Below, one piece after another: positions 4,192 through 44,458 of a stretch of 48,225 bases of DNA; position 1 is the first letter of the stretch, and each line of letters starts with the position of its first letter. The DNA lies in the NCBI RefSeq assembly GCF_012912105.1, contig NZ_QMEA01000037.1, forward strand, positions 1 to 48,225, given 5' to 3'. The notes beneath the pieces were generated by a model, which saw only the letters and a program-made list of their open reading frames with translations, made no database searches and had not been told where the DNA came from. This DNA is from Brasilonema sp. UFV-L1. GTDB taxonomy: Bacteria > Cyanobacteriota > Cyanobacteriia > Cyanobacteriales > Nostocaceae. The position numbers and the translations under genes were made by a program.

Positions 4192-5650
4192 TGCTGTTAC
4201 TCTCTCCGTTTTTTATTTTTTTTCTCCTTACAAGAGTATTTCCCATGTTCATCATCAAGGTATTACTTTCATATAAACCGACACCATTGACATGGGTTTG
4301 TGCCCATTTGTCTACTTCTTTATAACGAACACTTTCAAAAATATCATTGTAAGGAAATCTTAAAGAGAGAGGTTCTTCGATTTTAAGTTCCTTGGGATTC
4401 AAGATTCCATGATTAGTAGCAACATAAATTTTTTTAAAGCTGCGATAGTTACCACCACCTTGAGCATAATCCCATCCTTTTATCCGTTTCAAAATGTTGT
4501 AAAAACTTGAAGCTGTAATGCTGGTAAAGAAATTAGCCAAAGGATTGCGACCTGGTCTTGCTTGAATATTTTCTTTGGAAAAGTCAAAATAAAATATGCT
4601 ATAAAAATTAGGAAAAACTACTTCAAGTTGATAAATTACTTGCCAACGGCAATGCTCTATAAATAAAGAAGCTTTATTCTCCATAAAGAATTTTGGCAGA
4701 TTTAAACAGACTTCTTCATTAATTGCTTCTTTCATCTCATCAAGACTATAATTCTCTGGATTGTCGTCAACTAGCTTACTTTCTACCTTCACAGGCGAAA
4801 AATCTAAGCTGTCTCTATTATCTTCAACCTTCTTGACAAATTGACACATTTCTTGAAAATGGCAAAATTCGCCATTTTTAAAGGCTAGTATGTCTCCTGG
4901 GTCTAAAGCAAAGATGTTTTCTCCTATTTCTGGAAAAACCATCCTTACATCTTTACAAAATTGTTCTCGTGATACTGGGAATACAATTTGGTTCAGCCAA
5001 GATGAACCATTGATAAATTTAACGCCATTGGCTCCTGGAGCAATTGCCTTTGGTCGAATTAAACCGACTTTTTCAAGTAACTCGTTGTATTGGGAGTAAG
5101 GAAAAGATAAACTATAATTATTTTGGTAGTTGATTTCTAACATTGGTTGCCAAGCTGCTAATAAAAAATCAATATTCGGATAGCGAGATTTTACAAAACG
5201 AATTGTATCTAGACTGACTATCGTGTCTACTTGATTCCAGAAAACTCCAGATTCATCAGCAAATACTATGCCATATTCAGGTACGCGGTTTTCTGAGCGG
5301 GTTGCCATTAGACGGGTGGAACCAAGCTGAACTTCGCTAAAATCTCTCAAATAATAAATTTGCGAATATCCTAATTTACGGAGACAACTCTCCAACAGTT
5401 GGTCCTTAGGAATCAAGACATCAACTGTTTTTGGTAAATAAGCAAGAGAGCGAATGTCAAAGTGATCCAAATGCCGATGAGATATGATGAGCAGATCAAA
5501 TTCCGGAAGTTGTTCGTGAATCACTTCTCGCTTTGGACATACATCCTCTATACCTTCGCCGTGTGAATCCCAAAGCACGGGGTCTATGAGAATCTTAGAA
5601 TCTTGCGTTTCTACAAATATCGAAGCATGTCCAATCATGTGAATTTTCAT
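4172..5650 (-). CDS. MBL-fold metallohydrolase-like protein (paralogue 1)
   Basis: A 492-residue protein. The first ~250 residues are a metallo-beta-lactamase fold of the UlaG-like type: GHASIF near residue 8 and H58-x-H60-x-D62-H63 in SHRHLDHF. The second half (about 270-492) is a separate conserved region with FIEHCRWQVIYQLE and a C-terminal SNTLMMNMGNTLV. A GAGGTG site precedes ATG 5650. The paralogue at 38184-39623 has the same architecture but is paired with a peptide-arginase-like gene, while this one is coupled to a 2OG oxygenase. The substrate is unknown; hydrolase or oxidase chemistry at a dinuclear metal site is what the fold predicts. Confidence 0.85.
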   Translation of the reverse strand: MKIHMIGHASIFVETQDSKILIDPVLWDSHGEGIEDVCPKREVIHEQLPEFDLLIISHRHLDHFDIRSLAYLPKTVDVLIPKDQLLESCLRKLGYSQIYYLRDFSEVQLGSTRLMATRSENRVPEYGIVFADESGVFWNQVDTIVSLDTIRFVKSRYPNIDFLLAAWQPMLEINYQNNYSLSFPYSQYNELLEKVGLIRPKAIAPGANGVKFINGSSWLNQIVFPVSREQFCKDVRMVFPEIGENIFALDPGDILAFKNGEFCHFQEMCQFVKKVEDNRDSLDFSPVKVESKLVDDNPENYSLDEMKEAINEEVCLNLPKFFMENKASLFIEHCRWQVIYQLEVVFPNFYSIFYFDFSKENIQARPGRNPLANFFTSITASSFYNILKRIKGWDYAQGGGNYRSFKKIYVATNHGILNPKELKIEEPLSLRFPYNDIFESVRYKEVDKWAQTHVNGVGLYESNTLMMNMGNTLVRRKKIKNGESNSNANNYK

Positions 5651-11646: not shown

Positions 11647-11940
11647 ATGTCTATTGAAAGCGCAAAAGCCTTTTACGACAGGATTGTTACCGATGAAGCA
11701 TTCAAAACTCAGTACCAAAGTGCTGTCAGTGATGATGAACGCCGAGAAATTGTACTAGCTGCTGGCTATAACTTTACCCCGGAAGAATGGGAAGCCGCCA
11801 TGACTCAAATCTCAGAGTCCTCTGATGAAGAACTCAGCGACGCAGAACTAACAGCGGTTAGCGGTGGATCGTCATTGCTCCCAGGCAAGCCACCGAAATG
11901 GCCAATTGTGTATCCTTTGTACGGCGCGCCAATATCTTAG
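11647..11940 (+). CDS. Nif11-type precursor with X-Tyr-Gly core motif (2)
   Basis: A 97-residue peptide. I chose ATG 11647, with AGGAGG five bases upstream, over the in-frame ATG 11629, because the protein then starts MSIESAKAFYDR like its neighbour. The leader ends DAELTAVSGG. The Pro-rich core begins SSLLPGKPPKWP and ends IVYPLYGAPIS, with the LYGxP motif near the C-terminus rather than the middle as in precursor 1. It ends 23 bases before the radical SAM start, so the three genes form one operon. Confidence 0.88.
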   Translation: MSIESAKAFYDRIVTDEAFKTQYQSAVSDDERREIVLAAGYNFTPEEWEAAMTQISESSDEELSDAELTAVSGGSSLLPGKPPKWPIVYPLYGAPIS

Positions 11941-11963
11941 AACCTTTTGGGCAGGGTGAAACA

Positions 11964-13226
11964 ATGTCTAAAGAGTACCAACGAATCAGTTATGCTGTTT
12001 GGGAAATTACCCTCAAGTGCAACCTTGCTTGCAGCCACTGTGGTTCGCGAGCAGGGCAAGCTCGTACTAAAGAACTCTCAACAGAGGAAGCGCTTGACCT
12101 TGTTCAGCAGTTAGCCGAAGTTGGCATTAAGGAAGTAACTCTGATTGGGGGAGAAGCGTTTTTGCGCCCCGACTGGCTGGAAATTGCTCGTGCCATCACT
12201 CAGGCAGGTATGCTCTGCGGCATGACTACCGGGGGGTATGGCATATCACTGGACATGGCACGCCGGATGAAGGAAGCGGGAATTTCTATGGTTTCCGTCT
12301 CAACGGATGGAATGGAGGCGACTCATGACCGCCTTCGTGGTCGAAAAGGCTCTTGGAAGTCCGGATTGAGAACCATGGGCTACCTCAAGGAAGTTGGCAT
12401 ACCGTTCGGCTGCAACACCCAGATCAACCGCCTGTCTGCCCCTGAATTTCCGCTCATCTACGAGCATATCCGTGATGCTGGCGCGTGTGCATGGCAAATC
12501 CAACTGACTGTTCCGATGGGAAACGCAGCAGACAACGCAGACATCCTGCTCCAGCCGTCCGAACTATTAGATATCTACCCGATGCTGGCTCGTGTTACCC
12601 AGCGAGCCAGCCGTGAAGGAGTCAAGGTACGTGCTGGTAATAACATCGGTTACTACGGTCCTTATGAACGGCTGCTGCGTGGGGGAGGCAATGAATGGGG
12701 ATTTTGGCAGGGTTGCGGTGCTGGGCTGTCTACACTGGGGCTTGAAGCAGATGGTGCAATTAAAGGCTGTCCTTCACTACCTACTACAGCATATACCGGT
12801 GGTAACATCAGAGACCGCTCTCTGCGCGAAATTATTGAACAAACAGAAGAGCTGCGGTTTAACCTCGGTGCCGATACTCCCCAAGGTACGAAACATTTGT
12901 GGGGATTCTGTAAGACCTGCAAGTTCGCTGAACTATGCCGTGGGGGCTGCACTTGGACGGCTCACGTATTCTTCAACCGCAGAGGTAACAATCCTTACTG
13001 CCATCACCGAGCATTAGAGCAGGCAAAGCGCGGGAAACGAGAGCGTGTCTACCCTAAAGTACGGGCGCAAGGACTTCCCTTTGATAACGGTGAGTTTGCC
13101 TTGATTGAGGAGCCACTTGACGCTCCTTGGCCTCTCGACGATCCACTTCATTTTACTGCTGATAGCATTCAATGGTCAGACAGTTGGCAAGAAGAACCTG
13201 AATACACTTACTCCCTAGCAAGATAA
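11964..13226 (+). CDS. Radical SAM/SPASM RiPP maturase, candidate splicease
   Basis: 420 residues from ATG 11964; the frame is open further upstream, but that part overlaps the precursor. The [4Fe-4S]-SAM motif is C19-x3-C23-x2-C26 (CNLACSHC), with GGEAFLRPD as the SAM-contacting strand. A C-terminal SPASM region has CGAG...GCPSL, then CKTCKFAELCRGGC and a last Cys in NNPYCHH, enough for two auxiliary clusters. SPASM enzymes of this layout modify RiPP cores. The adjoining XYG precursors suggest PlpX-type splicing, although other C-C or C-X bond chemistry on Trp or Pro-rich cores is possible. The small downstream gene is not obviously the PlpY partner. Confidence 0.92.
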   Translation: MSKEYQRISYAVWEITLKCNLACSHCGSRAGQARTKELSTEEALDLVQQLAEVGIKEVTLIGGEAFLRPDWLEIARAITQAGMLCGMTTGGYGISLDMARRMKEAGISMVSVSTDGMEATHDRLRGRKGSWKSGLRTMGYLKEVGIPFGCNTQINRLSAPEFPLIYEHIRDAGACAWQIQLTVPMGNAADNADILLQPSELLDIYPMLARVTQRASREGVKVRAGNNIGYYGPYERLLRGGGNEWGFWQGCGAGLSTLGLEADGAIKGCPSLPTTAYTGGNIRDRSLREIIEQTEELRFNLGADTPQGTKHLWGFCKTCKFAELCRGGCTWTAHVFFNRRGNNPYCHHRALEQAKRGKRERVYPKVRAQGLPFDNGEFALIEEPLDAPWPLDDPLHFTADSIQWSDSWQEEPEYTYSLAR

Positions 13227-26763: not shown

Positions 26764-28209
26764 ATGTTAGACCAAAAGCGCAGCTTATTCCGAAAAGAAT
26801 CAATCGAGCGGCTATCTTCCCCTGAAAGACTAGACCAACTCATGCAGGTGGTCAGTCCTAAAAGCTGGCTACCTCTAGCCGCCTTAGGTTCCTTGGTAGC
26901 AGTTGCCATCGTCTGGAGTATTTATGGACGTATCCCCATCACTGTCGAAGGTCGAGGAGTAGTGATTTACCCCCGCAAAGTTGTGCCGCTGCAATCGAAA
27001 AGCGCAGGGCAGTTACTTGCTCTCGATGTCAAAGTTGGGGATGTCGTCAAAAAGGGACAGGTGCTGGCGACAATTGACCAAGCTGAACTGCGCAAGCAAC
27101 TACAACAGCAACGCGCTAAACTGAGGGAACTAGAATCGCAAGACCAAGCGGTTGGTTCGTTGCAAGGACAAAGGCTCGAACAGGAAAAACTCTCAATGCA
27201 GCAGCAACGGCTGTATCTCCAGCAACGCATCCGGGAACTTCATGCCCTGACACCTCTGGTAAAAACCAAAGGCAAGGACTCTATTAAGCAGCAACGCCAG
27301 GGCTTGCAACAACGTATCCGGGAAGCCCAAACTCTGACTCCCGTTTTTAAGCAGAGACTGGAAATCCGCAGACAGCTACGCGAAAAAGAAAGAGCAATTT
27401 CAGGTGATGAAGTTCTCAAAGCAGAACAGGAATATCTAGAAAACTTGCAAAAAATTTCTGAACTCCAAGCTCAGTTGAAGGAATTGGACGTTAAGGAGAC
27501 TGAACAAGAAAAAGTCTATCGTGAAAACCTCAGTACAATGTCTGACTTGCAAGCTCAGTTGAAACAACTTGACAGCAAACAAGCTTCTCAAGCTCAACAA
27601 GACTTAGAAAATGCAACTGTCCGCAAAAAAGAGATTCAAGAAGTCAATCGAGAAATTGTCAAACTAGAACTGCAACTAGGCAATAACAGCCAGATTATTA
27701 GTCAACATAATGGACGCATTCTCGAACTCACTGTTACGCCTGGGCAAGTCGTCAATGCAGGAACCCGCTTGGCAACCGTGGAGGTGGAGAATCCATCCAA
27801 CAAGCTGGTTGGCGTCACCTATTTTCCGGTTGCGGAAGGCAAGAAAATTCAGTCGGGTATGGCAATCCAAATTACCCCCCAAACCATTAAACGAGAACGC
27901 TTTGGTGGCATTGTCGGTACTGTAACTAGTATCTCACGGTTTCCCATTACAAAAGAGGCAGCCGCTAATGAGGTGGGCAATTCAGAAGTCGTAGAAGGTT
28001 TAGTATCTCAAAAACAAGAAGGTCTGATGCAAGTATTCGCTGAGCTACAGACGGATTCCACCTTCAGCGGCTACAAGTGGTCTTCTTCCACCGGACCACG
28101 CCTAAAAATCTCTCCTGGAACTACCACTGTTGTTCGAGTCAAGGTGGATGAACGCGCTCCCATCACCTTCGTTTTACCTATCTTGAGGTCCTTCAGTGGT
28201 ATCTACTAA
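26764..28209 (+). CDS. HlyD-family NHLM-system secretion adaptor
   Basis: A 481-residue membrane-fusion protein. It has a short cytoplasmic N-terminus, one TM helix (about 37-58, WLPLAALGSLVAVAIVWSIY) and a lipoyl-like half (SKSAGQLLALDVKVGDVVKKGQVLATID). A long coiled-coil hairpin follows (about 110-310, rich in Gln/Leu/Glu), then the second lipoyl half (ILELTVTPGQVVNAGTRLATVE) and a beta-barrel. It matches the NHLM bacteriocin-system secretion protein type. It bridges the inner-membrane exporters to the envelope. Its end overlaps the next gene by 14 bases, so it is made with the C39 exporter. Confidence 0.93.
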   Translation: MLDQKRSLFRKESIERLSSPERLDQLMQVVSPKSWLPLAALGSLVAVAIVWSIYGRIPITVEGRGVVIYPRKVVPLQSKSAGQLLALDVKVGDVVKKGQVLATIDQAELRKQLQQQRAKLRELESQDQAVGSLQGQRLEQEKLSMQQQRLYLQQRIRELHALTPLVKTKGKDSIKQQRQGLQQRIREAQTLTPVFKQRLEIRRQLREKERAISGDEVLKAEQEYLENLQKISELQAQLKELDVKETEQEKVYRENLSTMSDLQAQLKQLDSKQASQAQQDLENATVRKKEIQEVNREIVKLELQLGNNSQIISQHNGRILELTVTPGQVVNAGTRLATVEVENPSNKLVGVTYFPVAEGKKIQSGMAIQITPQTIKRERFGGIVGTVTSISRFPITKEAAANEVGNSEVVEGLVSQKQEGLMQVFAELQTDSTFSGYKWSSSTGPRLKISPGTTTVVRVKVDERAPITFVLPILRSFSGIY

Positions 28210-30517
28210 TCCAACTTTAGAAACACCTATTAATCCTTTGCGGTACTTGCAAACACTTCTCAAAAGCAGAGGCAGGCGGCGCGTCAAAACCCCCACTCTC
28301 CTACAAATGGAGGCTGTGGAATGTGGAGCTGCTGCGTTAGGAATTATTTTAGGTTACTACCGTCGAGTTGTACCACTGCCAGAACTGCGTCGAGAATGCG
28401 GAGTTTCCCGCGATGGTAGCAAGGCGTCTAATGTGCTGAAAGCTGCCAGAAGCTACGGACTCCAAGCGAAAGGTTTTAAAAAAGAACTGAAGCAACTGCA
28501 AGACCTACGCCCTCCTTATATTGTCTTCTGGAATTTCAACCACTTCCTGGTAGTGGAGGGATTTGGCAAAGAACGCGTTTATCTCAATGACCCCGGTACT
28601 GGTCCGCGTACTGTGTCCCAACAGGAATTTGACGAGGGGTATACCGGAGTGGTGCTGGTGATGGAACCAGGCACTGAGTTCACTAAAGGTGGTCGCAAAC
28701 CCAGTATGGTAACAGCACTGTGGGAACGGCTACAAGGTGCTGCTGGTGCTTTAGTTTACTGTATAATCGCGGGTTTTTTCTTAACTCTTATCGGGCTAGT
28801 GGTACCGGTATTTAGCCAAGTATTTGTAGATGATATATTAGTGCAGCAACGGCAACACTGGCTGCGTCCTCTGCTTTTAGGAATGGCGATCGCAGCCGTA
28901 CTCCAAGGGTCACTAACGTTACTGCGGTTGCGCTACCTACGCCGCCTGAAAATCAAGCTGTCTGTCGGCATGTCCAGCCGTTTTCTCTGGCACATCCTGC
29001 GTTTACCTGTTGGTTTTTACGCCCAACGATTTGCTGGAGAAATCAGCAATCGTACCAGTCTCAACGACCAAGTTGCTGATGTCCTTTCCGGAAAGTTGGC
29101 GACTACAGGCATCGATACGGTAATGGTGATTTTTTACGCCGCAGTCATGTTCCAGTATGACTGGGTACTGACCTTGATTGTAGTTACTTTTGCTGCTGTG
29201 AATGTCTTAACATTACAGTGGATTTCCCGACAACGGGTAGACGCGAATCAGCGATTGATACAAGAGTATGGCAAAGCTGCTGGCGCGTCGATAGCTGCTC
29301 TCCAAAGTATAGAAACACTCAAGGCATCTGGGTTAGAGTCGGATTTCTTTTCCCGATGGTCAGGTTACTACACCAAGGCTATCAATTCCCAGCAAGAACT
29401 TGGTGTCACAAACCAGATTTTCTCAGTATTACCCACGCTCTTATCAGCCCTCTCGTCTATGCTCTTGTTGGTTGTAGGCGGTTTACGGGTAATGGGTGGA
29501 CACCTTAGCATTGGGATGCTTATAGCTTTTCAAGGTCTAATGCACAGTTTTCAGGAGCCTGTAAACAATCTTGTCAACTTTGGTAGTACTCTTCAAGAAC
29601 TGGAGGGCAATTTAATTCGCCTAGATGATGTGCTGGACAACCCGATAGATCCGATAGTAGAGCATAGGAGAGAGGGAGAAAACAATTCAAAATGGACTGC
29701 GTCCCGCTGCGCTAACAAAATTCAAAATTCAAAATTAGAAATCTCTTCCTCATCTTCCTCATCTTCCTCATCTGTTCTGCCTAGATTACAGGGGTATGTT
29801 GAGCTGCGGAACATCACATTTGGCTATAGCCGCTTAGATCCCCCCCTAATTGAAAACTTGAACCTCTCGGTTAAACCCGGACAGCGAGTCGCTTTGGTCG
29901 GTGGGAGTGGTTCTGGCAAATCTACTGTAGCCAAAGTGGTCAGTGGGCTTTATCAACCTTGGGCGGGAGAAATTTTGTTTGATGGTAAACCCAGAGAGGA
30001 GATTCCGCATCAAGTACTTACTAACTCGGTTGCAATGGTAGAACAGGATATCCTGCTGTTTGGCGGAACTGTCAGGGATAATTTAACTTTATGGGATACT
30101 ACGGTATCAGACAAAAGCTTGATTCGAGCTTGTCAGGATGCAGCGATCGCTGATGTAATTCTTTCCATGTCTGGCGGGTTCGATGGAGAACTGATAGAAG
30201 GTGCTGCTAATTTAAGTGGAGGTCAGCGACAGCGGCTGGAAATAGCACGCGCTTTGGTCAACAACCCCTCTATACTCGTTATGGATGAAGCTACTAGCGC
30301 CTTGGATGCGGAAACCGAAAAAATTATTGATGAGAATCTGCGGCGACGGGGATGCACCTGCATAATTGTCGCACACCGCTTAAGCACTATCCGGGACTGT
30401 GATGAAATCATTGTCCTAGAACGAGGAAAGGTGGTACAACGAGGCACTCACCAACAATTGTGGCACGTTGAGGGTGTGTACTCGCGATTAATTCGCACTG
30501 AAGGTGAAGCGCTTTAG
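28196..30517 (+). CDS. NHLM peptidase-C39/ABC bacteriocin exporter
   Basis: A 773-residue three-domain transporter. The C39 peptidase comprises residues ~30-150, with catalytic Cys43 in MEAVECGAA, His116 in NFNHFLVVEG, Asp132 in LNDPGTG and oxyanion Gln37. It cuts after double-Gly leaders. Six TM helices lie at ~180-470. The nucleotide-binding domain (~530-773) has Walker A Lys575 in GGSGSGKST, signature LSGGQRQR and Walker B ILVMDEATSALD. GTG 28196 has GAGG seven bases upstream. The linker (~490-530) is extended by an in-frame repeat that encodes NSKWTASRCANKIQNSKLE and a run of ten Ser. It is the expected leader peptidase/exporter for all the VAGG/IAGG/SGG precursors here. Confidence 0.95.
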   Translation: MVSTNPTLETPINPLRYLQTLLKSRGRRRVKTPTLLQMEAVECGAAALGIILGYYRRVVPLPELRRECGVSRDGSKASNVLKAARSYGLQAKGFKKELKQLQDLRPPYIVFWNFNHFLVVEGFGKERVYLNDPGTGPRTVSQQEFDEGYTGVVLVMEPGTEFTKGGRKPSMVTALWERLQGAAGALVYCIIAGFFLTLIGLVVPVFSQVFVDDILVQQRQHWLRPLLLGMAIAAVLQGSLTLLRLRYLRRLKIKLSVGMSSRFLWHILRLPVGFYAQRFAGEISNRTSLNDQVADVLSGKLATTGIDTVMVIFYAAVMFQYDWVLTLIVVTFAAVNVLTLQWISRQRVDANQRLIQEYGKAAGASIAALQSIETLKASGLESDFFSRWSGYYTKAINSQQELGVTNQIFSVLPTLLSALSSMLLLVVGGLRVMGGHLSIGMLIAFQGLMHSFQEPVNNLVNFGSTLQELEGNLIRLDDVLDNPIDPIVEHRREGENNSKWTASRCANKIQNSKLEISSSSSSSSSSVLPRLQGYVELRNITFGYSRLDPPLIENLNLSVKPGQRVALVGGSGSGKSTVAKVVSGLYQPWAGEILFDGKPREEIPHQVLTNSVAMVEQDILLFGGTVRDNLTLWDTTVSDKSLIRACQDAAIADVILSMSGGFDGELIEGAANLSGGQRQRLEIARALVNNPSILVMDEATSALDAETEKIIDENLRRRGCTCIIVAHRLSTIRDCDEIIVLERGKVVQRGTHQQLWHVEGVYSRLIRTEGEAL
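29684..29770. repeat. Extragenic repeat inserted in the exporter linker
   Basis: AATTCAAAATGGACTGCGTCCC, read in overlapping parts, leads into ATTCAAA heptamers (29717-29737) and three exact copies of TCTTCCTCA (29744-29770). The GGACTGCGTCCCGC/ATTCAAA combination recurs in the intergenic region after this gene (30520-30570). The insertion length keeps the frame. Confidence 0.75.
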
Positions 30518-36027: not shown

Positions 36028-37980
36028 ATGAGTCAAGTATTCAATTCCCCAGAATCATCTACTATTTCTCGTCGCACATTACTAAAATTATTTGGTGTAG
36101 GTGCGATGACAGGAGTCTTAGGATACTCTCGGTTTACTAGACCAAAACCAACAGTTTTTCAACAAGATACCTTAAGTTTGCCACAGTTATTGAATCAACA
36201 AAAAAGTGTTGTTGTCGTTGGAGGTGGACTAGCTGGTTTAGCTTGTGCTTATGAATTGAGTCAGAGAGGATTTGCAGTTACACTGTTAGAAAAATCTGCC
36301 CAACTTGGTGGCAAAATTGCCAGCTGGGAAATTCAAGTCAAGGGTGAAACCTTCAGGATGGAGCATGGCTTTCATGGCTTTTTCCCTCAGTACTATAATC
36401 TGAATCATTTAGTCACAGAATTAGGCATTTATGAAAATTTCAAGTCATTAAATTTTTACTCTGTTGTTTATCGTGATACCAAGTACAAACCAGAGGTATT
36501 TCGTCCCAGTCGTTCTGCTTTTCCTTGGAATATTGTAGATTTAGCTATAGCCTCTCCCAATCGCTTTCAGTGGGGCATTAATCTCACAAAATGGAAACAT
36601 TTACAAGTTTTCCAAGCGATTGGTGGTTTTGAGAGAGAAAAAAATTATCGGCGTTTTGATAATATATCAGTTGCTGATTGGGTAGAGAAAGAATTTCCCA
36701 GGGGTTTATACGATTTGTATTTTTTACCTTTTGCCAAATCGAGTTTGAATGCACCAGACATGATGAGTGTTGCTGAACTTATGCAGTTCTTCCACTTTTA
36801 TTTTTTTGGTAATCCAGAAGGACTCGCTTTTAATGGTACTAAAGACGATATGGGAACAAGTTTAGTGCAACCCATTGCTAAAGCTATTCAAAGTAAAGGT
36901 GGTAAAATTATTACAGAAGCAATGGTGAGTGAAGTTCAAGCAACACAAAGCAAAATAAATTCACTCAGCTATCAGATTGGTAATCATACAAATAACGTTC
37001 CTTTTTGGGTTAAGCGTAATCAGACTTTAGAGACGCATCCGATTAGCACGTCTTTACAATATTTTGGCGCAGCTGATGAAGTCTTTACCTTATCAGATGA
37101 TAGTCAAGAAGCTATTTCTCTGACCTGCACTCACCAAGGTTGTACAGTGAAAATGGCAGAAGATGGCAAATTTCATTGCCCTTGTCATGGAGCAGTGTTC
37201 GCGGCTGATGGTAAAGTCTTAAAAGGTCCTGCACAACGAGATTTACCTAGATTTGAAATTGTACAACGTCAAGATGATAGTTTGCAGTTGCTCGCTGTAA
37301 ATCCTGATTCGTCCTTACCACAGACAATTCAAGCAGATTATTATGTCTTCGCTACCGATGTACCAGGTGTACAGCAGTTGTTTCGCAAAATCAATAGTGA
37401 TGTGGATGTATCAGTGCAATCGCAAATCAAAAAACTGAACGTTGCTGATCCATTCGCTGTCTGTCGCTTCTGGTTTGACAAAGATTTTGAGTGGGAGCAC
37501 AGTCATTTTACTTCTTTGTCTGGCTATCAGCTCACTGACAGCATCACTCTCTATCACCGTATTCAGGAACAATTCATTGAGTGGGCAAAACGCACTGGTG
37601 GTAGTGTGGTAGAGTTACACGCTTACTGCTACAAAGAAAAACAATTTCCCACCCAAGAAGCCTTGTTAACAACTTTTGAGCAAGAACTCTACGAAATTGT
37701 TCCTCAGTTAAAACAAGCAAACATGTTGCATAGAGAATTGGTAAATCAAAAAAACTTTTCTGGATATCCTCCAAATAGTTACGCTGAACGTCCAGAAACG
37801 AGTACCAATATTTCTAACTTGGTGTTTGCAGGAGATTGGGTAAAAATGCCATTTCCTTGCGGTTTGATGGAACGAGCTGTAAGCAGTGGCTTATTAGCTG
37901 CTAATGAAATTTTACATCGGGAGGGTTTGCAAAGGCGAACACTTTTGTCAGTCAATCCAGAGGGGTTGTTGCAGATTTAA
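36028..37980 (+). CDS. Tat-targeted FAD oxidoreductase with inserted Rieske domain
   Basis: 650 residues. The N-terminal twin-Arg signal is SRRTLLK (14-20) with a hydrophobic stretch after it. The FAD site is VVVVGGGLAGLACAYELSQRG (read about 61-81) then LLEKSAQLGGKI, as in carotenoid/phytoene desaturase-like amine-oxidase-fold enzymes. A Rieske [2Fe-2S] insert occupies ~350-420, with C367-T-H369 and C384-P-C-H387. The C-terminal FAD loop is VFAGDWVKMPFPCGLMERAVSSG. It probably oxidises a lipid or isoprenoid with electrons routed through the Rieske centre, outside the cytoplasm (periplasm or thylakoid lumen). It is a single gene, convergent with the MBL-fold gene. A link to the RiPPs is not shown. 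Confidence 0.88.
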   Translation: MSQVFNSPESSTISRRTLLKLFGVGAMTGVLGYSRFTRPKPTVFQQDTLSLPQLLNQQKSVVVVGGGLAGLACAYELSQRGFAVTLLEKSAQLGGKIASWEIQVKGETFRMEHGFHGFFPQYYNLNHLVTELGIYENFKSLNFYSVVYRDTKYKPEVFRPSRSAFPWNIVDLAIASPNRFQWGINLTKWKHLQVFQAIGGFEREKNYRRFDNISVADWVEKEFPRGLYDLYFLPFAKSSLNAPDMMSVAELMQFFHFYFFGNPEGLAFNGTKDDMGTSLVQPIAKAIQSKGGKIITEAMVSEVQATQSKINSLSYQIGNHTNNVPFWVKRNQTLETHPISTSLQYFGAADEVFTLSDDSQEAISLTCTHQGCTVKMAEDGKFHCPCHGAVFAADGKVLKGPAQRDLPRFEIVQRQDDSLQLLAVNPDSSLPQTIQADYYVFATDVPGVQQLFRKINSDVDVSVQSQIKKLNVADPFAVCRFWFDKDFEWEHSHFTSLSGYQLTDSITLYHRIQEQFIEWAKRTGGSVVELHAYCYKEKQFPTQEALLTTFEQELYEIVPQLKQANMLHRELVNQKNFSGYPPNSYAERPETSTNISNLVFAGDWVKMPFPCGLMERAVSSGLLAANEILHREGLQRRTLLSVNPEGLLQI

Positions 37981-38183: not shown

Positions 38184-39623
38184 TCACCGAGCTAGCTTCA
38201 CAAGGGTATTGCCCATCTGCATCATCAGCGTTCTAGGTTCCTGGGGTTTTGCTCTATTATTATTTTCATGACTCCATTGAGCGATTTCATTCTGTAAAAT
38301 TCTCTTGAGGACTTCGCGGTAAGGAAATTTCAAAGCCAGCGGCTCGGAAATTCGCTCTTGTTCGTCTGGTTTGGTTATTCCTTGAGGAGTTGGGATATAT
38401 AATTTTTGAAACCCGCGATAGTAACCGCCAAGATTAGCATAATCCCAACCTTTTAGTCCTTGGAAAATTCCATAAAGACTAGAAGCAGTCATATAAGTAA
38501 ACAAATTCGCCAAAGGATTTCTACCTTCTTGAGCTTGAATTTCAGTTTGAGAAAAATCAAAATTCCAAATTTTTGAGCCGTCAGGGAAGACTATTTCTAA
38601 TTGATAAATGACTTGCCAGCGACAATGTTCTATAAATAAAACATTTCGATTTTTGGTGATAAATTTGGGCAGGTTAACGCTAATTTCTTTACAAATTGCC
38701 TCCTTCATCTCATCAAGATGATAATTATCGGGATTATTATCTATCATTTCATTGCCAACTCGAACGGGTGAAAAATCTAAATCCTCTCGGTTGTCGCTAA
38801 TCTTGTGGACAAATGGGCACTTACCTTTTAAATGACTGAATTCACCGCCGTCAAAAGTTAACACGTCGCCAGGATATAAAGGAAATACATTGTTGCCTAT
38901 TTCTGGACAAGCATTTTTGACATCGTGACAAAAACGTTCTGTCGTCACCGGAAATAAGATTTTATTCAACCAAGCCGAACCTCCAATACATCTAAAACCA
39001 TTAGAACCTGGAGCGACTGCTTGGGGTTGAATTGTACTAATAGTTTGGAGAATCTTGCTATAGATGGAATCAGGAAAATTCAAACTCATATTCATCTGAT
39101 AGTTCATCTCTAGCATGGGTTGCCACATAGCTAAGAGAAAATTAATTTTTTCATAGCGAGATTTAATGAAACGAATGGTATTCAGGCTGACGATAGTATC
39201 GACTTGATTCCAAAAAACTCCCGATGCGTCAGCAAAGATAACGCCGTATTCGGGTACGCGGTTTTCCGAACGAGTTGTCAGTAAACTAGTTGCACCAAAT
39301 TTAACTTTATTAAAATCTTTTAAGGGATATATATGTGAATATCCTAATTGGCGCAGACAGTCTTCTATCAACTTGTCTTCAGGAATGAGAACATCGACGG
39401 TTTTAGGTAAATAAGCCAGAGAACGAATATGAAAGTGATCCAAATGTTGATGGGAAATAATCAGTAGGTCGAATTCGGGAATGTTCTCATGAATGACTTC
39501 TCGTTGCGGACAAATATCAAATAAGCCTTCTTGGTGAGGATCCCAGAGAACCGGATCCATCAAAATTTGACAATCTTGGGTTTTGACAAAAATAGAAGCA
39601 TGTCCGATGAAATTAATTTCCAT
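38184..39623 (-). CDS. MBL-fold metallohydrolase-like protein (paralogue 2)
   Basis: 479 residues from ATG 39623, where it aligns with the start of paralogue 1; a TTG 15 bases upstream is less likely. It has GHASIF, then SHQHLDHF (H-x-H-x-D-H metal site), NRVPEYGVIFAD, VFWNQVDTIVSL and IEHCRWQVIYQLE, all shared with the 4172-5650 protein over the whole length. The C-terminus TLMMQMGNTLVK is shared too. It follows the UPF0489-TPR gene by 17 bases on the same strand, an operon divergent from four Nif11 precursors. It is therefore probably a tailoring or accessory protein of that RiPP unit; its reaction is unknown. Confidence 0.87.
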   Translation of the reverse strand: MEINFIGHASIFVKTQDCQILMDPVLWDPHQEGLFDICPQREVIHENIPEFDLLIISHQHLDHFHIRSLAYLPKTVDVLIPEDKLIEDCLRQLGYSHIYPLKDFNKVKFGATSLLTTRSENRVPEYGVIFADASGVFWNQVDTIVSLNTIRFIKSRYEKINFLLAMWQPMLEMNYQMNMSLNFPDSIYSKILQTISTIQPQAVAPGSNGFRCIGGSAWLNKILFPVTTERFCHDVKNACPEIGNNVFPLYPGDVLTFDGGEFSHLKGKCPFVHKISDNREDLDFSPVRVGNEMIDNNPDNYHLDEMKEAICKEISVNLPKFITKNRNVLFIEHCRWQVIYQLEIVFPDGSKIWNFDFSQTEIQAQEGRNPLANLFTYMTASSLYGIFQGLKGWDYANLGGYYRGFQKLYIPTPQGITKPDEQERISEPLALKFPYREVLKRILQNEIAQWSHENNNRAKPQEPRTLMMQMGNTLVKLAR

Positions 39624-39640
39624 ATTCTGAAAGCGCAAAA

Positions 39641-41092
39641 TTAATTGGCTAATTTTTGAACTAAAATTGCAGTGGCAAGCTGGATACGTTGATATTTTTT
39701 GTACATAGCTTGAGAATTGGCCTCGTCTCCCATCTGCTTGTAAATTTTGGCGAGTACGTTCGCAGGCTGACTAAAGGCTGGCATGAGTTCGCTCACTTTT
39801 AAAAAATGCTCGGACGCTTGTTTTAAATCCCCCTGTTTGACGGAAATTCTACCAAGTAATGAATGAGCGCCACAGACAGTCATGTCATCTTGTAATGCAC
39901 CGCGCAGAAAGCTGGCTGCACGTTGGGGATATCCTGCTTGCAATAATAAATTGCCTAACCGGAAGTTGAGTTGAGGGTGTCGATCACTGATTTTCTTGTA
40001 AATTTGATGATGCTTGAACACTTGACGAAAATCACCCAATTTGCTGTATAAAAGCCCTAATGTAAAATGAGCGATCGCTAATTCCTCTTGATTCACAACG
40101 CTGGTTAAGAGTCGATTTTCTAATTCTTCCAGATTCGTCCTGTCGAATTTTAAGTCTCGACTCGCTAGTTCACTGATGGAACGCAACACACTCGGCCGAT
40201 AATTAGGATCTAAATTGGTAGCTTTGTTTTGATACTCTTGGGCGAGTTCGGCTTTGGATTCTGCTAGGCTGAGTAAGTAGTAAGTCGCGGCGCAGTCAGG
40301 GAATTTTTCTAGTTCATCAAGACAACCCGCAACCACAGCCGCTGCTTCTGTTTGTCCCAATCTCCTGTCGAGGTGAAACAAGCGCGAGTAATGGGTTGAT
40401 TTTTGGCGATCGCCTAACCACAAAGCAGCCAGATAGTCTGCGAAAAAACGATAGCGCAATGGCATGTAACCGCTACTTACCGAACGAGTTATGGTGACAA
40501 AATCGGATGTTAAAGGCAACTTTTGCAAGCTAGCAAAAACCTCTTGTGGATCAATCCAGGGTTCGTCAGCAGGCAATTCAATAAAATAGTCAATATCAAT
40601 ATCTATTAAGCTGTCTTCTGGAAGCTGCAATTGCGGGAGATCGCGATAGTCACAAATCACTACATCCAATCCCAGCAGTTTACCTTCTAAGATATTACCA
40701 ATAAGTTTTAAACTCGATAAATCTTCGAGGCTCACACCTTCCATCGATTGCAACTTGCCAAGAATTTCTTGGGTTTTTTGTTCTCGAGTTTGCTCGGATT
40801 TTTGTGGAGGATTTACCCAAATCAAACGCGAAATTATTCCCAAGCAGTAAGCTGGATATAAGAAATCTTCAATGCTATAGCTGTAACCGCGATCAGGCAG
40901 CATGTGATGGGGTTTCTCAAACTTAGCCAATTCATCAGCTGTCTGACAATTTTTCAGCGCTGCAATTCGCTCTTGACTGACCAATTGCAGGTCTATATGT
41001 GCATCTAAATAAATTAAAGTCTTTCCTTTAATTCCCCATCGCATCCATTCTGGTAATACAGAAGAATGCTCTTCAAATATGATCGTTTTCAT
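39641..41092 (-). CDS. UPF0489 peptide-arginase-like domain fused to TPRs
   Basis: 483 residues from ATG 41092; an upstream TTG is open but UPF0489 proteins begin near MKTIIFEEH. The N-terminal domain (1-~230) has the ureohydrolase metal motifs D30-A-H32-I-D34 and D164-I-D166-I-D168-YF, plus EEH at 7-9. UPF0489 includes OspR-type peptide arginases, which turn Arg in RiPP cores into ornithine. The C-terminal half (~240-483) is TPR repeats (AIAHFTLGLLYSKLGDFRQV, RISVKQGDLKQASEHFLKV). The neighbouring cores are Arg-rich, which fits Arg-to-Orn conversion with the TPRs binding precursor or partners. Known peptide arginases lack this TPR half as far as I recall. Confidence 0.85.
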   Translation of the reverse strand: MKTIIFEEHSSVLPEWMRWGIKGKTLIYLDAHIDLQLVSQERIAALKNCQTADELAKFEKPHHMLPDRGYSYSIEDFLYPAYCLGIISRLIWVNPPQKSEQTREQKTQEILGKLQSMEGVSLEDLSSLKLIGNILEGKLLGLDVVICDYRDLPQLQLPEDSLIDIDIDYFIELPADEPWIDPQEVFASLQKLPLTSDFVTITRSVSSGYMPLRYRFFADYLAALWLGDRQKSTHYSRLFHLDRRLGQTEAAAVVAGCLDELEKFPDCAATYYLLSLAESKAELAQEYQNKATNLDPNYRPSVLRSISELASRDLKFDRTNLEELENRLLTSVVNQEELAIAHFTLGLLYSKLGDFRQVFKHHQIYKKISDRHPQLNFRLGNLLLQAGYPQRAASFLRGALQDDMTVCGAHSLLGRISVKQGDLKQASEHFLKVSELMPAFSQPANVLAKIYKQMGDEANSQAMYKKYQRIQLATAILVQKLAN

Positions 41093-41562
41093 GTTTTTTA
41101 CTTTTTCAAACGCTCTTTTCGTAAATATCAACTCTTTTAGTCATATGATAATCTAAGTTTTATAAAATGTTCACAATATCTAATATGCAAACGACTAAAA
41201 AAACCAAATACTGAACTTTTCAGAACTTTTCTCTAACTCAGATCAAAAATTTTCTTTAACTCCTGAATTTTTCATAAGTTATCTGTATGGCGAGTAAAGA
41301 TGGCATAGGATATAAAAAAAATATCCAAAGTTCTGAAGTCTCAAATAAAAATCAAAAGCTCTCTTGTAGTTATGGTAATCAGCAAAGAGCATCATTTACA
41401 AAGCCTTTACAAGCTAAGGGTTTCAGCACAAACTTTTTAGGAACCTATCAGTAATGAGGCGGTTTTCCACCACAAGTGCGGGAGAGCCAAATCAAATGCA
41501 TTTTTATGTGAGTCTAAACAGATAAAAATCAACGTTCTCAAGTAATAACTAGGAGATATAAA
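41093..41562. other. Divergent promoter region of the Arg/Trp RiPP unit
   Basis: AT-rich, no gene. It separates the leftward arginase/MBL pair from the rightward Nif11 operon, so both promoters should lie here. It does not hold a clear copy of the 49-bp element found elsewhere in the island. GGAGAT just before 41563 is the ribosome site. Confidence 0.6.
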
Positions 41563-41832
41563 ATGTCTAAAGAAGCTATTGAACAAATGTTCCAAGCTGC
41601 TAGCCAAGATGTAACTTTGCAACAGCAACTAGAAAATGCCCCTGGATATGCAGAAGCTGTTAAAATCGGTGCCGATCATGGTTATCAATTTACTGAAGAG
41701 GAAGCAAAAGCTTTTCTCACCGAACGTGGCATATTAGAAGGGTCAGAAGGAGAATTATCAGACAACGCCCTAGAAGCTGTTGCTGGTGGATTGTTTGACG
41801 GCTGGAGAATTGGTGTCAGAATTGGTTGGTAA
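41563..41832 (+). CDS. Nif11-type precursor, Arg/Trp core 1
   Basis: An 89-residue peptide. The Nif11 leader (MSKEAIEQMFQAASQD, GYQFTEEEAKAFLTERG) ends NALEAVAGG. The core is LFDGWRIGVRIGW: two Arg, two Trp, no Ser, Thr or Cys, so neither lanthionine nor azoline chemistry is possible. It ends in Trp like the three following cores. GGAG precedes the ATG. First gene of a four-precursor operon leading into a flavoprotein gene. Confidence 0.92.
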   Translation: MSKEAIEQMFQAASQDVTLQQQLENAPGYAEAVKIGADHGYQFTEEEAKAFLTERGILEGSEGELSDNALEAVAGGLFDGWRIGVRIGW

Positions 41833-41890
41833 TTTCTGCTATTCTACAGCTATCGGAAAACTCCAAAGAATAAAAACAACGACTTGAAGT

Positions 41891-41945
41891 TGTTGAGTGT
41901 TGAGTGTTGAGTGTTGAATGTTGACTGTTAGCAGTCAACATTCAA
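41891..41945. repeat. Heptamer repeat and 14-bp hairpin between precursors 1 and 2
   Basis: Five TGTTGAN units (41891-41925). The last two form the left arm of a perfect stem, TTGAATGTTGACTG (41914-41927) with CAGTCAACATTCAA (41932-41945), loop TTAG. There is no U-run, so RNA processing or partial attenuation is likelier than full termination. Confidence 0.75.
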
Positions 41946-41977
41946 TGGTCAGCAGATTTTTCTGGAGGATGATAAAA

Positions 41978-42274
41978 ATGTCAAAAGAATCTGTCGAGCA
42001 ATTCATGCAAGCTGCAGGTCTTGATGCGGCTTTGCAAAAAAAACTAGAAGCCGCAGAAGGGTTTGCAGAAGTTGTTGAAATTGGAGCCGAGAAAGGCTAT
42101 CAGTTTACCGAGGAAGAAGTGCAAGCTTTTTTATCCGAACGTGGTATTACTCTTGAAGAGAGTCAAGAGGGGGAACTATCAGAAGCAGCTCTTGATGCTG
42201 TCGCTGGTGGATGGTTTGAGAATTTGAGAATTAGGTTAGGTAATGACGCGCCAATTACAATTCGTCAGTGGTAG
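41978..42274 (+). CDS. Nif11-type precursor, Arg/Trp core 2
   Basis: 98 residues from ATG 41978, with GGAGG upstream; a longer frame from 41918 begins inside the hairpin repeat and is rejected. The leader (GYQFTEEEVQAFLSERG) ends AALDAVAGG. The core is WFENLRIRLGNDAPITIRQW, the longest of the set, with three Arg and terminal Trp. The leader is very close to those of cores 3 and 4, while the cores differ strongly, the usual sign of a shared enzyme set acting on diversified products. Confidence 0.92.
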   Translation: MSKESVEQFMQAAGLDAALQKKLEAAEGFAEVVEIGAEKGYQFTEEEVQAFLSERGITLEESQEGELSEAALDAVAGGWFENLRIRLGNDAPITIRQW

Positions 42275-42313
42275 CAAGATATTTTTTCTGTATTTAAGAT
42301 TAGGAGATTTAAA

Positions 42314-42604
42314 ATGTCAATAGAAGCTGTTGATAGCCTAATACAAGCTGCTGGAAAAGATGTAGCTTTGCAACAAAAGCTAGAAGCCGCACAAGGATTT
42401 GCAGAAGTTGTTCAAATTGGAACCGAAAAAGGCTATCAGTTTACTGAGGAAGAAGTACAAGCGTTTTTAAGAGAAAGTGGTATTACTCTCGAAGGGATTC
42501 AACAAGAAGAACTATCTGAGGAAGCGTTGGATGCTGTCGCTGGGGGGTCTATTTGGGACGGAAAATGGACGGATAACGTGAGAATTAACATTCGGGGCTG
42601 GTAG
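42314..42604 (+). CDS. Nif11-type precursor, Arg/Trp core 3
   Basis: A 96-residue peptide with leader GYQFTEEEVQAFLRESG ending EALDAVAGG. The core is SIWDGKWTDNVRINIRGW: two Arg, one Lys, three Trp, terminal Trp. The pattern VRINIRGW alternates Arg or polar with Ile, as do VRIGW and LRFRDW in the siblings. GGAG lies before the ATG. Confidence 0.92.
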   Translation: MSIEAVDSLIQAAGKDVALQQKLEAAQGFAEVVQIGTEKGYQFTEEEVQAFLRESGITLEGIQQEELSEEALDAVAGGSIWDGKWTDNVRINIRGW

Positions 42605-42657
42605 TTCTGTTCAATATTATGCTTCGCTGCTGTGAAAATCATTGAGGTAATTTTACG

Positions 42658-42930
42658 ATGTCGAAAGAAGCGATCTCACAAATGATGCAATCTGCTAGTG
42701 AAAATCCTACTTTGCAACATCAACTAGAACAAGCTGGCGGATTAGCAGAAGTGGTGAAAATTGGAGCCGAAAAAGGCTATCAGTTTACTGAGGAAGAAGT
42801 GCAAGCTTTTCTATCCGAACGCGGCGTTAATTTTGAAGATAGCACAGAGGGAGAACTATCGGAGGAAACCCTGGAAACTGTCGCTGGTGGTTTTATTGTC
42901 GGGTGGGCGCTCAGGTTTAGAGATTGGTAA
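42658..42930 (+). CDS. Nif11-type precursor, Arg/Trp core 4
   Basis: A 90-residue peptide with leader GYQFTEEEVQAFLSERG ending ETLETVAGG. The core is FIVGWALRFRDW, 12 residues with two Arg and terminal Trp, the most hydrophobic of the four. The ribosome site is weaker than for the siblings (GAGGTAATTTACG). Its stop is 13 bases before the flavoprotein start, suggesting translational coupling of the last precursor with the enzyme. Confidence 0.92.
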   Translation: MSKEAISQMMQSASENPTLQHQLEQAGGLAEVVKIGAEKGYQFTEEEVQAFLSERGVNFEDSTEGELSEETLETVAGGFIVGWALRFRDW

Positions 42931-42943
42931 CACCTTGCTGATT

Positions 42944-44458
42944 ATGGATGTACTTCTAGCTTGGCAGGAACTCCTCAGTTCAGAAAATGTTTTAACCGAC
43001 GAAAAAACTATATCTGCTGTGCAAACAGCAACATTTGCAACCACACAGCGAGTGCTGGCGGTGATTCGGCCAGGCGATCGCGCAGAGGTGCAAGAATGTA
43101 TCAAAATTGCTAATCAATACCAAACACCGATTTATCCCATTAGCCGTGGTAAAAATTGGGGCTTGGGTTCGCGAGTTCCGGTTAAAGATAACTGTGTAGT
43201 GATGGATTTAAGCAGGCTTGATCGCATTGTCGATTATCATGAAAAACTTGCTTATATAACTGTTGAGCCAGGAGTTACTTTTCAACAAGTCTTTGAATAC
43301 TTGCGTGATATTCAGTCCAACTTATTTCTTTCGGTGATTGGTGGTCCTCCTGAAGGGAGTGTGATTGCAAATACGCTAGAAAGAGGTGATGGTATTGGAC
43401 CATTAGGCGATCGCATCAATTATGTTTGTGGATTTGAGGTAGTTCTACCGACGGGAGAATTAATTCACACTGGATTTGGAAGGTTTGCTAATGCCAAAAC
43501 TACGCCTGTGAGTCGTTGGGGTGTGGGGCCTTCTGTAGATGGGATATTCGCCCAATCTAACTTGGGAATAGTCACACAAATGACCGTTTGGTTAACGCCT
43601 ATCCCCAAATATTATCTATCTTTTAATTGTATAGTTAAAGATCATTCTCGTCTGCAACAACTCATAGATATTATTCAGCAATTAATTCTACAAGGCACAA
43701 TTAAGGAGAACTGTTTTAATTTTTGGAATTGCTACAAATTTTTAGCCAAAGAAGGGCGATATCCGTGGCAACTTTTAGGGGGAAAAACGCCCTTTTCGCT
43801 TCAAGAACTAAAAGGTACTGAACCTTGGTTCGGAACTGGAGATTTATATTGCGCCAGTCAAGAACAAGGATTAGCAGAACGGAAGATAATTGAGGAGGCA
43901 TTAGCCGGACGAGTAGAACAACTCATTTTTAGTGATCAAGAAGATAGCAGCAGCCCGTTAAAAGATGATATACGTCTTGGTATTCCTAGCAATATCAATA
44001 TCAAAAGTACTTATTGGCGAAAGAAAATTAAAATTCCTAAAAATCTAGATCCTGATAGAGATGCTTGTGGCGTTCTGTGGCTTTGTCTGCTTTTTCCTTT
44101 TGATGGGCAACCAATTGTTGAATCATTAAGAACTATTGAATCGACAATTAAATCTTATCAATTTGAGCCAAACATTGCCATAAATTGTTCGACAAGTAGA
44201 AGTGTAAAAATGTTTATAGCGATTATGTATGATCGCCAGGTACTCGAAGCAGATAGCCGAGCAATGGCATGTCACGATCACCTGTTACAATTGTTTGTTC
44301 AAGAAGGATATATTCCTTATCGCTTAGGCATTCAATCGATGCATTCTTTACCAACAGCACAAGATGATTATGACCAGTTAATTAGAAATATTAAAAACCA
44401 ATTAGACCCCAATAATATCCTTGCTCCTGGTCGATACGATTTTAGTAGGGATAAATGA
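42944..44458 (+). CDS. VAO/PCMH-type FAD-linked oxidase
   Basis: 504 residues from ATG 42944; the frame stays open back into the precursor, but that part is precursor sequence in another frame. The FAD-binding PCMH domain (about 50-240) has YPISRGKNWGLGS, VVMDLSRLDRIVDY and VEPGVTFQQVFEYL, then GGPPEGSVIANTLERGDG and FEVVLPTGELIHTGFG. These are close to the motifs of p-cresol methylhydroxylase and vanillyl-alcohol oxidase. The C-terminal cap (about 250-504) ends LDPNNILAPGRYD. Such enzymes oxidise benzylic positions by hydride transfer to flavin. With Trp-terminated precursors adjacent, oxidation of Trp or the C-terminus is a reasonable guess. Confidence 0.9.
   Translation: MDVLLAWQELLSSENVLTDEKTISAVQTATFATTQRVLAVIRPGDRAEVQECIKIANQYQTPIYPISRGKNWGLGSRVPVKDNCVVMDLSRLDRIVDYHEKLAYITVEPGVTFQQVFEYLRDIQSNLFLSVIGGPPEGSVIANTLERGDGIGPLGDRINYVCGFEVVLPTGELIHTGFGRFANAKTTPVSRWGVGPSVDGIFAQSNLGIVTQMTVWLTPIPKYYLSFNCIVKDHSRLQQLIDIIQQLILQGTIKENCFNFWNCYKFLAKEGRYPWQLLGGKTPFSLQELKGTEPWFGTGDLYCASQEQGLAERKIIEEALAGRVEQLIFSDQEDSSSPLKDDIRLGIPSNINIKSTYWRKKIKIPKNLDPDRDACGVLWLCLLFPFDGQPIVESLRTIESTIKSYQFEPNIAINCSTSRSVKMFIAIMYDRQVLEADSRAMACHDHLLQLFVQEGYIPYRLGIQSMHSLPTAQDDYDQLIRNIKNQLDPNNILAPGRYDFSRDK

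Follow-up and report, generated by a model that had tools for sequence, protein, structure and literature searches.

What becomes of four tandem precursor peptides whose genes lie beside those for an arginase, a metallo-β-lactamase (MBL)-fold protein and a flavoprotein? The question is raised by positions 38184–44458 of contig NZ_QMEA01000037.1 from the cyanobacterium Brasilonema sp. UFV-L1. We analysed the whole 48,225-nucleotide stretch (hereafter the window), which is one entire contig (C268) of an 8.3-Mb draft genome. The block is a gene cluster for ribosomally synthesized and post-translationally modified peptides (RiPPs) of this cyanobacterium. On balance, we consider it probable that the arginase forms ornithine and that the flavoprotein oxidizes the C-terminal tryptophan of the peptides, with further oxidation by the MBL protein and release by an exporter.

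Four Trp-ended precursors in one block

From left to right, the block consists of the MBL gene and the arginase gene on the reverse strand, followed divergently by four Nif11 precursor genes and the flavoprotein gene on the forward strand. All genes listed in a sequence-only reading of this DNA were found where it had placed them. The start codons used here (ATG at 41092 for the arginase, 39623 for the MBL protein, 41978 for precursor A2 and 42962 for the flavoprotein) were chosen because of homologues; some of the listed open reading frames (ORFs) began too early.

The precursors, all on the forward strand, are A1 (41563..41832; core LFDGWRIGVRIGW), A2 (41978..42274; core WFENLRIRLGNDAPITIRQW), A3 (42314..42604; core SIWDGKWTDNVRINIRGW) and A4 (42658..42930; core FIVGWALRFRDW), of which A2, A3 and A4 have counterparts in the related locus L035. 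Each scored above the Pfam and NCBIfam cut-offs for Nif11 (TIGR03798: 41.7, 49.2, 51.8 and 46.0 bits, respectively; cut-off, 32.3). A double-glycine motif, VAGG, directly precedes the core in all four. The cores, which hold nine arginines in all, had been described as Cys-free and Trp-terminated with Arg two or three residues before the Trp; this was borne out in every case, and no Cys occurs anywhere in the four precursors. The leaders had been called nearly identical, which is too strong: pairwise identity among A1–A4 is 59–76%, and the genes are diverged tandem copies.

A flavoprotein clade that travels with C-terminal Trp

The flavoprotein (498 amino acids; 42962..44458, forward strand; PF01565, 81.6 bits, cut-off 26.4) is of the p-cresol methylhydroxylase (PCMH)/vanillyl-alcohol oxidase (VAO) type, and we propose it as a candidate C-terminal Trp oxidase. 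Its best match in the PDB was PCMH itself (E 4e-59, over nearly the whole length); the PF02913 C-terminal domain fell under its cut-off (14.5 versus 21.2 bits). Locus surveys were run on 388 genomes of the same order as the window. At E 1e-60, these held 33 flavoprotein matches in 32 genomes, and the analysis covers 31 of them (all except those of G305 and G276). At the class level, 281 genomes searched at E 1e-120 yielded three with matches, all already in the set.

Nif11 precursors lay near the flavoprotein gene at 9 of the 31 loci, and these nine carry the flavoproteins closest to that of the window (the window itself, L035, L036, L077, L079 and L121–L124). In a 22-sequence tree, which takes in 11 of the 22 homologues that have Tyr at PCMH position 95 (see below), the nine formed a clade with an ultrafast bootstrap support of 100. 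In a tree of 31 sequences the support was 70, and an Azospirillum homologue, L045, joined with a support of 73. The precursors were within 1.5 kb of the flavoprotein gene at seven of the nine clade loci and about 4 kb away in L123 and L124. None lay within 1.5 kb at the other 22 loci, or over 12–20 kb at the 15 of these that were opened. All 16 Nif11 precursors beside clade flavoproteins end in Trp. Their core ends are mostly unlike one another (NVRINIRGW, GRIRIKKW, SLEIKGGW, SANVGGW, SSLFKKW and GGNCSQW), with related core sets in the window, L035 and L036 and in L123 and L124; in L079, L121, L123 and L124 the terminal Trp is the sole Trp of the core.

As a background we used 109 stretches around Nif11 matches from a search of 148 genomes, which held 107 distinct Nif11 ORFs, 22 of them RiPP-like by a pattern of our own (with L196 doubtful); the stretches were picked from high-scoring matches and were not a random draw. 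A Trp-ended RiPP-like Nif11 precursor was present in all eight genomes with the flavoprotein clade, as against 5 of the 14 background genomes, a tally made by hand with G035 counted in both groups. The corresponding Fisher P value of 0.004 is only a guide, because of the kinship among the loci and the non-random background.

A further Nif11 family, ending in KIKW or similar, was seen in L081, L085–L088, L191 and L221, all without the flavoprotein. In L081 and L085–L088 the precursors stand beside a member of the MBL family, with varying LanM, second MBL-type, 2-oxoglutarate (2OG) oxygenase and dehydrogenase genes. The C-terminal Trp may be a target in this family as well.

Active-site residues of the flavoprotein clade

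The clade also differs from its relatives in sequence. At PCMH position 95, eight of the nine members have Leu and one has Phe; all 22 other homologues have Tyr. We take Tyr95, Tyr473 and Arg512 of PCMH to be its phenolate-binding residues. The window flavoprotein has Leu at position 95 and retains Tyr473, Arg474 and Arg512; across the clade, seven of nine members have Tyr473 (L123 and L124 have Asp instead) and all nine have Arg512. We read the swap at position 95 as a substrate shift away from phenols. That a flavin enzyme might oxidize Trp or the C terminus had been suggested beforehand, and the co-occurrence of the clade with C-terminal Trp and the loss of Tyr95 support such a reaction.

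Homologues outside the order came from plasmids (172 records, all below 60% identity), and nine of the 20 listed were opened. Leu95 was found in three (L044, L045 and L259) and Tyr95 in six. In L045 (Azospirillum oryzae plasmid NZ_CP054617.1, 1–11485), a Leu95 flavoprotein is encoded near exporters of the nitrile hydratase leader peptide (NHLP) type and a 365-amino-acid protein that has a start resembling a double-Gly leader (ELLVVVGG) and the end KKMKKW, the terminal Trp being its only Trp. The locus, which was examined after the idea of a C-terminal Trp target had been formed, fits the prediction and is a possible proteobacterial form of the same module. NHLP-type genes were absent from the gene tables of all six Tyr95 plasmid homologues, small ORFs having been read in L044 and L045 only. 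One of these Tyr95 loci, L260, holds methyltransferase, GNAT and amidase genes besides a halogenase gene (below), perhaps a small-molecule halotryptophan pathway.

An arginase and MBL pair

The arginase gene (39641..41092, reverse strand) encodes 483 amino acids, a UPF0489 peptide arginase domain (PF12640, 33.5 bits, cut-off 27) fused to tetratricopeptide repeats (TPRs; TPR_8 and TPR_2 above cut-off). Its OspR-like motifs had been called intact, and the six metal ligands (H9, D30, H32, D34, D164 and D166) are indeed invariant in all 11 aligned arginases. PbsE is likewise a TPR-containing arginase, with ligands His10, Asp31, His33, Asp35, Asp165 and Asp167 (PMC12257519; this and the other reports cited are used from the portions of their texts available to us). 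The window numbering is that of PbsE minus 1, with identical spacing. The EEH, DxHxD and DIDxDYF motifs described in PMC12703449 are present as well. A reading of the arginase as inactive through a lost His was rejected, given that the EEH motif is intact and sits at the N terminus. With 30.3 bits against a cut-off of 350 for NCBIfam NF052474, the protein lies outside the FlmR/OhkR subfamily.

The TPR fusion and the six ligands in PbsE spacing make conversion of core Arg to Orn a sound and well-supported prediction (mass shift, −42.02 Da per Arg; PMC12703449); they also mean that the architecture is not new. The earlier suggestion of ornithine formation thus holds up, for an enzyme type already in print. 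One caution is that PbsE is active solely on a precursor that has already been hydroxylated, according to the text available of PMC12257519.

At E 1e-10, nine arginase matches were found among the 388 genomes. Five are full length, in the window, L035 (G035), L036 (G376), L037 (G297) and L038 (G111), and the MBL gene adjoins the arginase at all five; four partial matches (three to the TPRs alone and one, 27% identical, to the catalytic part) stand outside this count. A scan of genome contigs gave one locus, in Anabaena sp. 4-3, and a plasmid tblastn with the window arginase gave zero matches. The flavoprotein accompanies the arginase and MBL genes at three of the five loci (the window, L035 and L036). 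In L037, the pair has as neighbours a Trp halogenase gene and two precursors whose Arg/Trp-rich cores have a terminal Trp. The arginase/MBL and flavoprotein/C-terminal-Trp sets are two separable modules. The proposed co-conservation of all four genes had a mixed outcome: they occur together in three of 388 genomes, arginase with MBL at five of five loci, and the flavoprotein with a C-terminal-Trp precursor at 9 of 31.

Two observations concern other arginase loci. A small double-Gly peptide (L037:373–570), rich in Arg and aromatic residues, stands beside the arginase/MBL/halogenase cluster of L037. A biphenomycin-like cluster with an SFHAFRF precursor (L039:4469–12084, G120:C1) holds radical S-adenosylmethionine (SAM), MNIO-type (PF05114) and JmjC genes above cut-off; its arginase was missed by Pfam, yet aligns with its ligands retained.

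The MBL protein (479 amino acids; 38184..39623, reverse strand; PF13483, 33.4 bits, cut-off 24) belongs to a RiPP-associated family and is a putative dimetal oxygenase. At E 1e-20, it had 27 matches in 25 of the 388 genomes; 22 loci outside the window were opened, with the matches in G321 and G363 left out of the wider opening. Nif11 or NHLP precursors were present at 17 of the 22, and an oxygenase of one family, of the 2OG-Fe type by its scanned member, lay near the MBL gene at 11. A second paralogue in the window (4172–5650), 62% identical, is next to a 2OG-Fe oxygenase gene (3586–4191).

Is this protein an oxygenase or a hydrolase? An AlphaFold model built from 24 sequences reached a pLDDT of 85.4 (60.3 from six), and a PDB fold search gave FrsH, NAPE-PLD and CmlA as the closest structures, with nearly equal scores. 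A hydrolase or peptidase, acting for example in leader removal, is suggested by MBL hydrolases such as NAPE-PLD and an isothiocyanate hydrolase, whose scores are about level with those of FrsH and CmlA, and we regard that alternative as quite possible. Against it, CmlA tops a sequence profile search (E 6e-6), and 2OG-Fe-type oxygenases recur near the gene. H8, H58, H60 and H63 are the only invariant His residues in the 24 aligned homologues; D62, E125 and D132 are also invariant and E120 nearly so. Hydrolytic MBL sites normally carry further His ligands, and those later ligands are missing here. In CmlA and FrsH we take E377 to be a Glu standing in for the next His ligand; the CmlA PDB alignment ends ahead of this residue. 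Membership of the CmlA family itself was rejected, because the last ligand was not found and the domain order differs: the match begins at residue 7, versus about 252–272 in the CmlA and FrsH chains, and the extra domain is C-terminal rather than N-terminal. An iron oxygenase is our guess for the MBL protein, one that could fall either way.

Weighing the C-terminal Trp assignment

Several observations weigh against a flavoprotein that oxidizes C-terminal Trp and against the pathway around it. Terminal Trp was found in 11 of the 22 RiPP-like background ORFs, beside which no flavoprotein is known; eight of the 11 came from two genomes holding a tandem family that ends in KIKW or similar. The nine clade loci are kin, with about six independent core types among them. 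A precursor near the L038 arginase and MBL genes lacks a C-terminal Trp, and the similarity on which the MBL role is built is weak. In the active site, the L123 and L124 flavoproteins are also without Tyr473. PCMH residues E380, E427 and D440 are missing from all 21 aligned homologues, so the active site differs generally and the clade is not alone in these losses. Tyr384 of PCMH, presumably its covalent flavin link, aligns in both alignments with a Thr just ahead of the Tyr in STYW. Among the plasmid homologues, L044 (Megaera) has Leu95 and, with its small ORFs read, no recognised precursor; L259 (Rhizobium) has a Leu95 flavoprotein among catabolic-looking genes; and in L260 (Methylorubrum populi plasmid NZ_AP014813.1, 4044–10687) a Tyr95 flavoprotein gene adjoins one for a tryptophan 7-halogenase. 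Because Leu95 occurs in L044 and L259, the swap alone is no mark of peptide enzymes, and the pattern is that of the clade plus C-terminal Trp. A terminal Trp is not uncommon on its own. What carries the argument is that about six unrelated core types agree without exception, combined with the position-95 swap and the Azospirillum locus.

A PF04820-type halogenase gene is present at six of the nine clade loci. It was recognized by Pfam in L035, L036, L077 and L123 (160–497 bits, cut-off 21), by a PDB match in L079 (E 1e-128) and by blast only in L124; the L035 and L036 proteins are shorter and more distant. SrpI is a leader-dependent RiPP brominase of C-terminal Trp, as reported in the available parts of PMC12615548 and PMC10858898. 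The C-terminal Trp could thus be the target of a SrpI-like halogenase only, with the flavoprotein acting elsewhere, for example on ornithine or an internal residue. The window genome does have PF04820 matches, on other contigs only (best, 99 bits), which need not be halogenases since the same profile also matches in 5 of 14 control genomes. The window block, however, keeps the flavoprotein and the C-terminal Trp without a halogenase, and the L036 halogenase as query found zero matches in the window genome. L121 and L122, on contigs of just 5–6 kb, likewise show the flavoprotein and a C-terminal-Trp precursor without a halogenase, and no halogenase appears in an incomplete table of the genes near L045. 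No arginase was seen beside the flavoprotein in L122 or L045. The cores of L123 and L124 carry no Arg or one, so ornithine is not the general flavoprotein substrate; we rejected it as such on the L123 core, which is without Arg. We therefore regard action of the flavoprotein elsewhere as unlikely and retain the C-terminal Trp as its proposed substrate.

Two further observations concern halogenase loci. In L123 (12341–13864, by Pfam) and L124 (5868–7391, by blast), a radical SAM gene lies between the halogenase side and a Cys-containing precursor, FYYGSG(G/R)NCSQW. One short contig (L140:42–6656, G258:C660) combines a PF04820 halogenase and a UPF0489 arginase lacking TPRs with two NHLP precursors whose cores are rich in Arg and Trp; its genome also has the flavoprotein locus L077.

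A halogenase adjoins the flavoprotein in both closest relatives, L035 and L036, and is missing from the window, as it would be if the cluster were a decaying remnant whose product is no longer made. Against such decay, all remaining window genes are open, and the ratio of nonsynonymous to synonymous substitution rates (dN/dS) relative to L035 and L036 is 0.11–0.21 for the three enzymes and 0.25–0.39 for the precursors, indicating purifying selection. The window also retains four precursors where L036 has one, and we hold a remnant to be improbable. More improbable still is a reading in which the arginase alone acts on the precursors and the genes for the flavoprotein and the MBL protein have no functional tie to it: L037 and L038, the more distant arginase loci, lack the flavoprotein, but the MBL gene adjoins the arginase at all five full-length loci, and at all nine clade loci, mostly without this arginase, the flavoprotein lies no more than about 4 kb from C-terminal-Trp Nif11 precursors.

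Comparison with known systems

Among the systems compared, the mpp cluster of Moorena producens shares with the window a cyanobacterial origin, a Nif11-like leader, arginases (two in mpp) and an Arg/Trp core (ACWRWSG in mpp; PMC11791876). It has a SrpI-like Trp halogenase, which we saw in relatives of the window only, and adds a LanM, a prenyltransferase, a terpene synthase and an oxygenase; the available part of PMC11791876 names no PCMH-type flavoprotein or MBL gene. The window differs from mpp in being without a halogenase and without Cys. With a Nif11 precursor, two arginases and a Trp halogenase, mpp shows that ornithine plus halo-Trp in a Nif11 peptide was already foreseen in print. The locus L041/L214 (G042:C126), with a Nif11 precursor of core ACWRWSG, a LanM homologue and two UPF0489 genes (one of 536 amino acids), resembles mpp or an orthologue.

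In srp, as in the window, the C-terminal Trp of a long-leader precursor would be the target (PMC10858898 and PMC12615548, in the parts available). That system has a proteusin leader, YcaO thiazolines and a halogenase, whereas the Trp enzyme of the window would be an oxidase-type flavoprotein; the word arginase is absent from the available text of PMC10858898. The pbs cluster shares the TPR-containing arginase with its six equally spaced ligands, and its Orn is subsequently hydroxylated by a partner enzyme (PMC12257519). Unlike the window, it has an MNIO, a B12 radical SAM enzyme, a cupin hydroxylase and FHAFRF precursors, and Trp is absent from the portion of that text at hand. OspR (landornamide) and FlmR/OhkR, likened here by description, have the same predicted reaction and motifs, and Nif11 precursors are among the family substrates (PMC12703449, in part). 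Five TPR-less UPF0489 homologues (308–326 amino acids) are 16–19% identical to the window arginase.

The window flavoprotein is related to the PCMH/VAO family over nearly its whole length, but differs in the change of Tyr95 to Leu and in its genomic context of peptide precursors. Oxidative decarboxylation of a RiPP C terminus, to a hydroxystyrylamine, is carried out by the plant cyclopeptide alkaloid decarboxylase (PMC12871766, in part). That enzyme is 2OG- and iron-dependent; in the window, a flavoprotein would act on Trp. Among the matches listed in open-licence full texts, a set outside which most subscription papers fall, we found no account of a PCMH/VAO-type flavoprotein serving as a RiPP enzyme, and open-licence full texts gave none that paired a C-terminal tryptophan with oxidative decarboxylation. 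The sequence-only reading had proposed an undescribed RiPP class. This applies in part: the flavoprotein, probably in a new enzyme role, is the new element, whereas the arginase type and the Trp theme are known, Nif11 precursors with arginases and a Trp halogenase having been described for mpp (PMC11791876, in part).

The contig around the block

Outside the block, the contig is a RiPP island that also holds nitrile-hydratase-type precursors and three further Nif11 precursors with a radical SAM gene. Of the six further double-Gly precursors that were read there, not one has a C-terminal Trp. The absence of LanM and radical SAM genes claimed beforehand is true of the block and not of the contig (LanM, 6721–9993; radical SAM, 11898–13226). 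A lanthipeptide reading was rejected on the Cys-free precursors and on the distance of LanM, about 32 kb from the block. A C39-peptidase ABC exporter gene (28196..30517, forward strand; Peptidase_C39, 117.8 bits, cut-off 22), 11 kb from the block, encodes a possible leader-cleaving export partner of the block that the whole island would share; homologues adjoin the flavoprotein loci L123 and L124. At 36028–37980, an amine-oxidase/desaturase-like domain is fused to a Rieske domain; neither L035 nor L036 has a counterpart of this fusion close to its block.

A proposed pathway and its meaning

We infer the following reactions and export step from gene content, motifs, co-occurrence, the clade and the residue swap. 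The TPR-fused UPF0489 arginase would hydrolyse the nine core arginines of the four cores to ornithine. VAO-type enzymes abstract a hydride from a carbon adjoining an electron-rich ring, such as the benzylic carbon of p-alkylphenols. By analogy, the flavoprotein would bind the invariant C-terminal Trp and take a hydride beside the indole ring, giving an alkylidene-indolenine that could lose CO2, lose a proton or add water. For a C-terminal position to matter, the carboxylate must either participate or be recognised. CO2 loss is the favoured outcome, and would leave an indolyl-vinyl amide at about −46 Da; dehydro-Trp (−2 Da) and β-hydroxy-Trp (+16 Da) are the alternatives. Provided that the flavoprotein does act on the C-terminal Trp, we put this preference at about an even chance. 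The MBL protein, as partner of the arginase, would probably add a further oxidation, perhaps on ornithine, and a double-Gly peptidase exporter would then release the core.

We suggest, tentatively, that a branch of the PCMH/VAO family, in which Leu has replaced the phenol-binding Tyr, comprises oxidases of RiPP C-terminal Trp in cyanobacteria and at least one proteobacterium. These enzymes might decarboxylate the last Trp to an indolyl-vinyl amide in peptides that are mostly also halogenated and that here are combined with ornithines. To our knowledge, flavoproteins that finish the C terminus of ribosomal peptides are few, and those of the EpiD/MibD type require a C-terminal Cys. The sharp prediction is that a clade flavoprotein goes with a C-terminal Trp. 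If true, RiPPs would gain a new kind of modification, catalysed by an enzyme family that is not known to work on peptides, and a leader-guided enzyme on C-terminal Trp would offer a simple way to cap peptides. One family of Trp/Arg peptides would then bring together halogenation, the formation of ornithine and oxidation of the C terminus.

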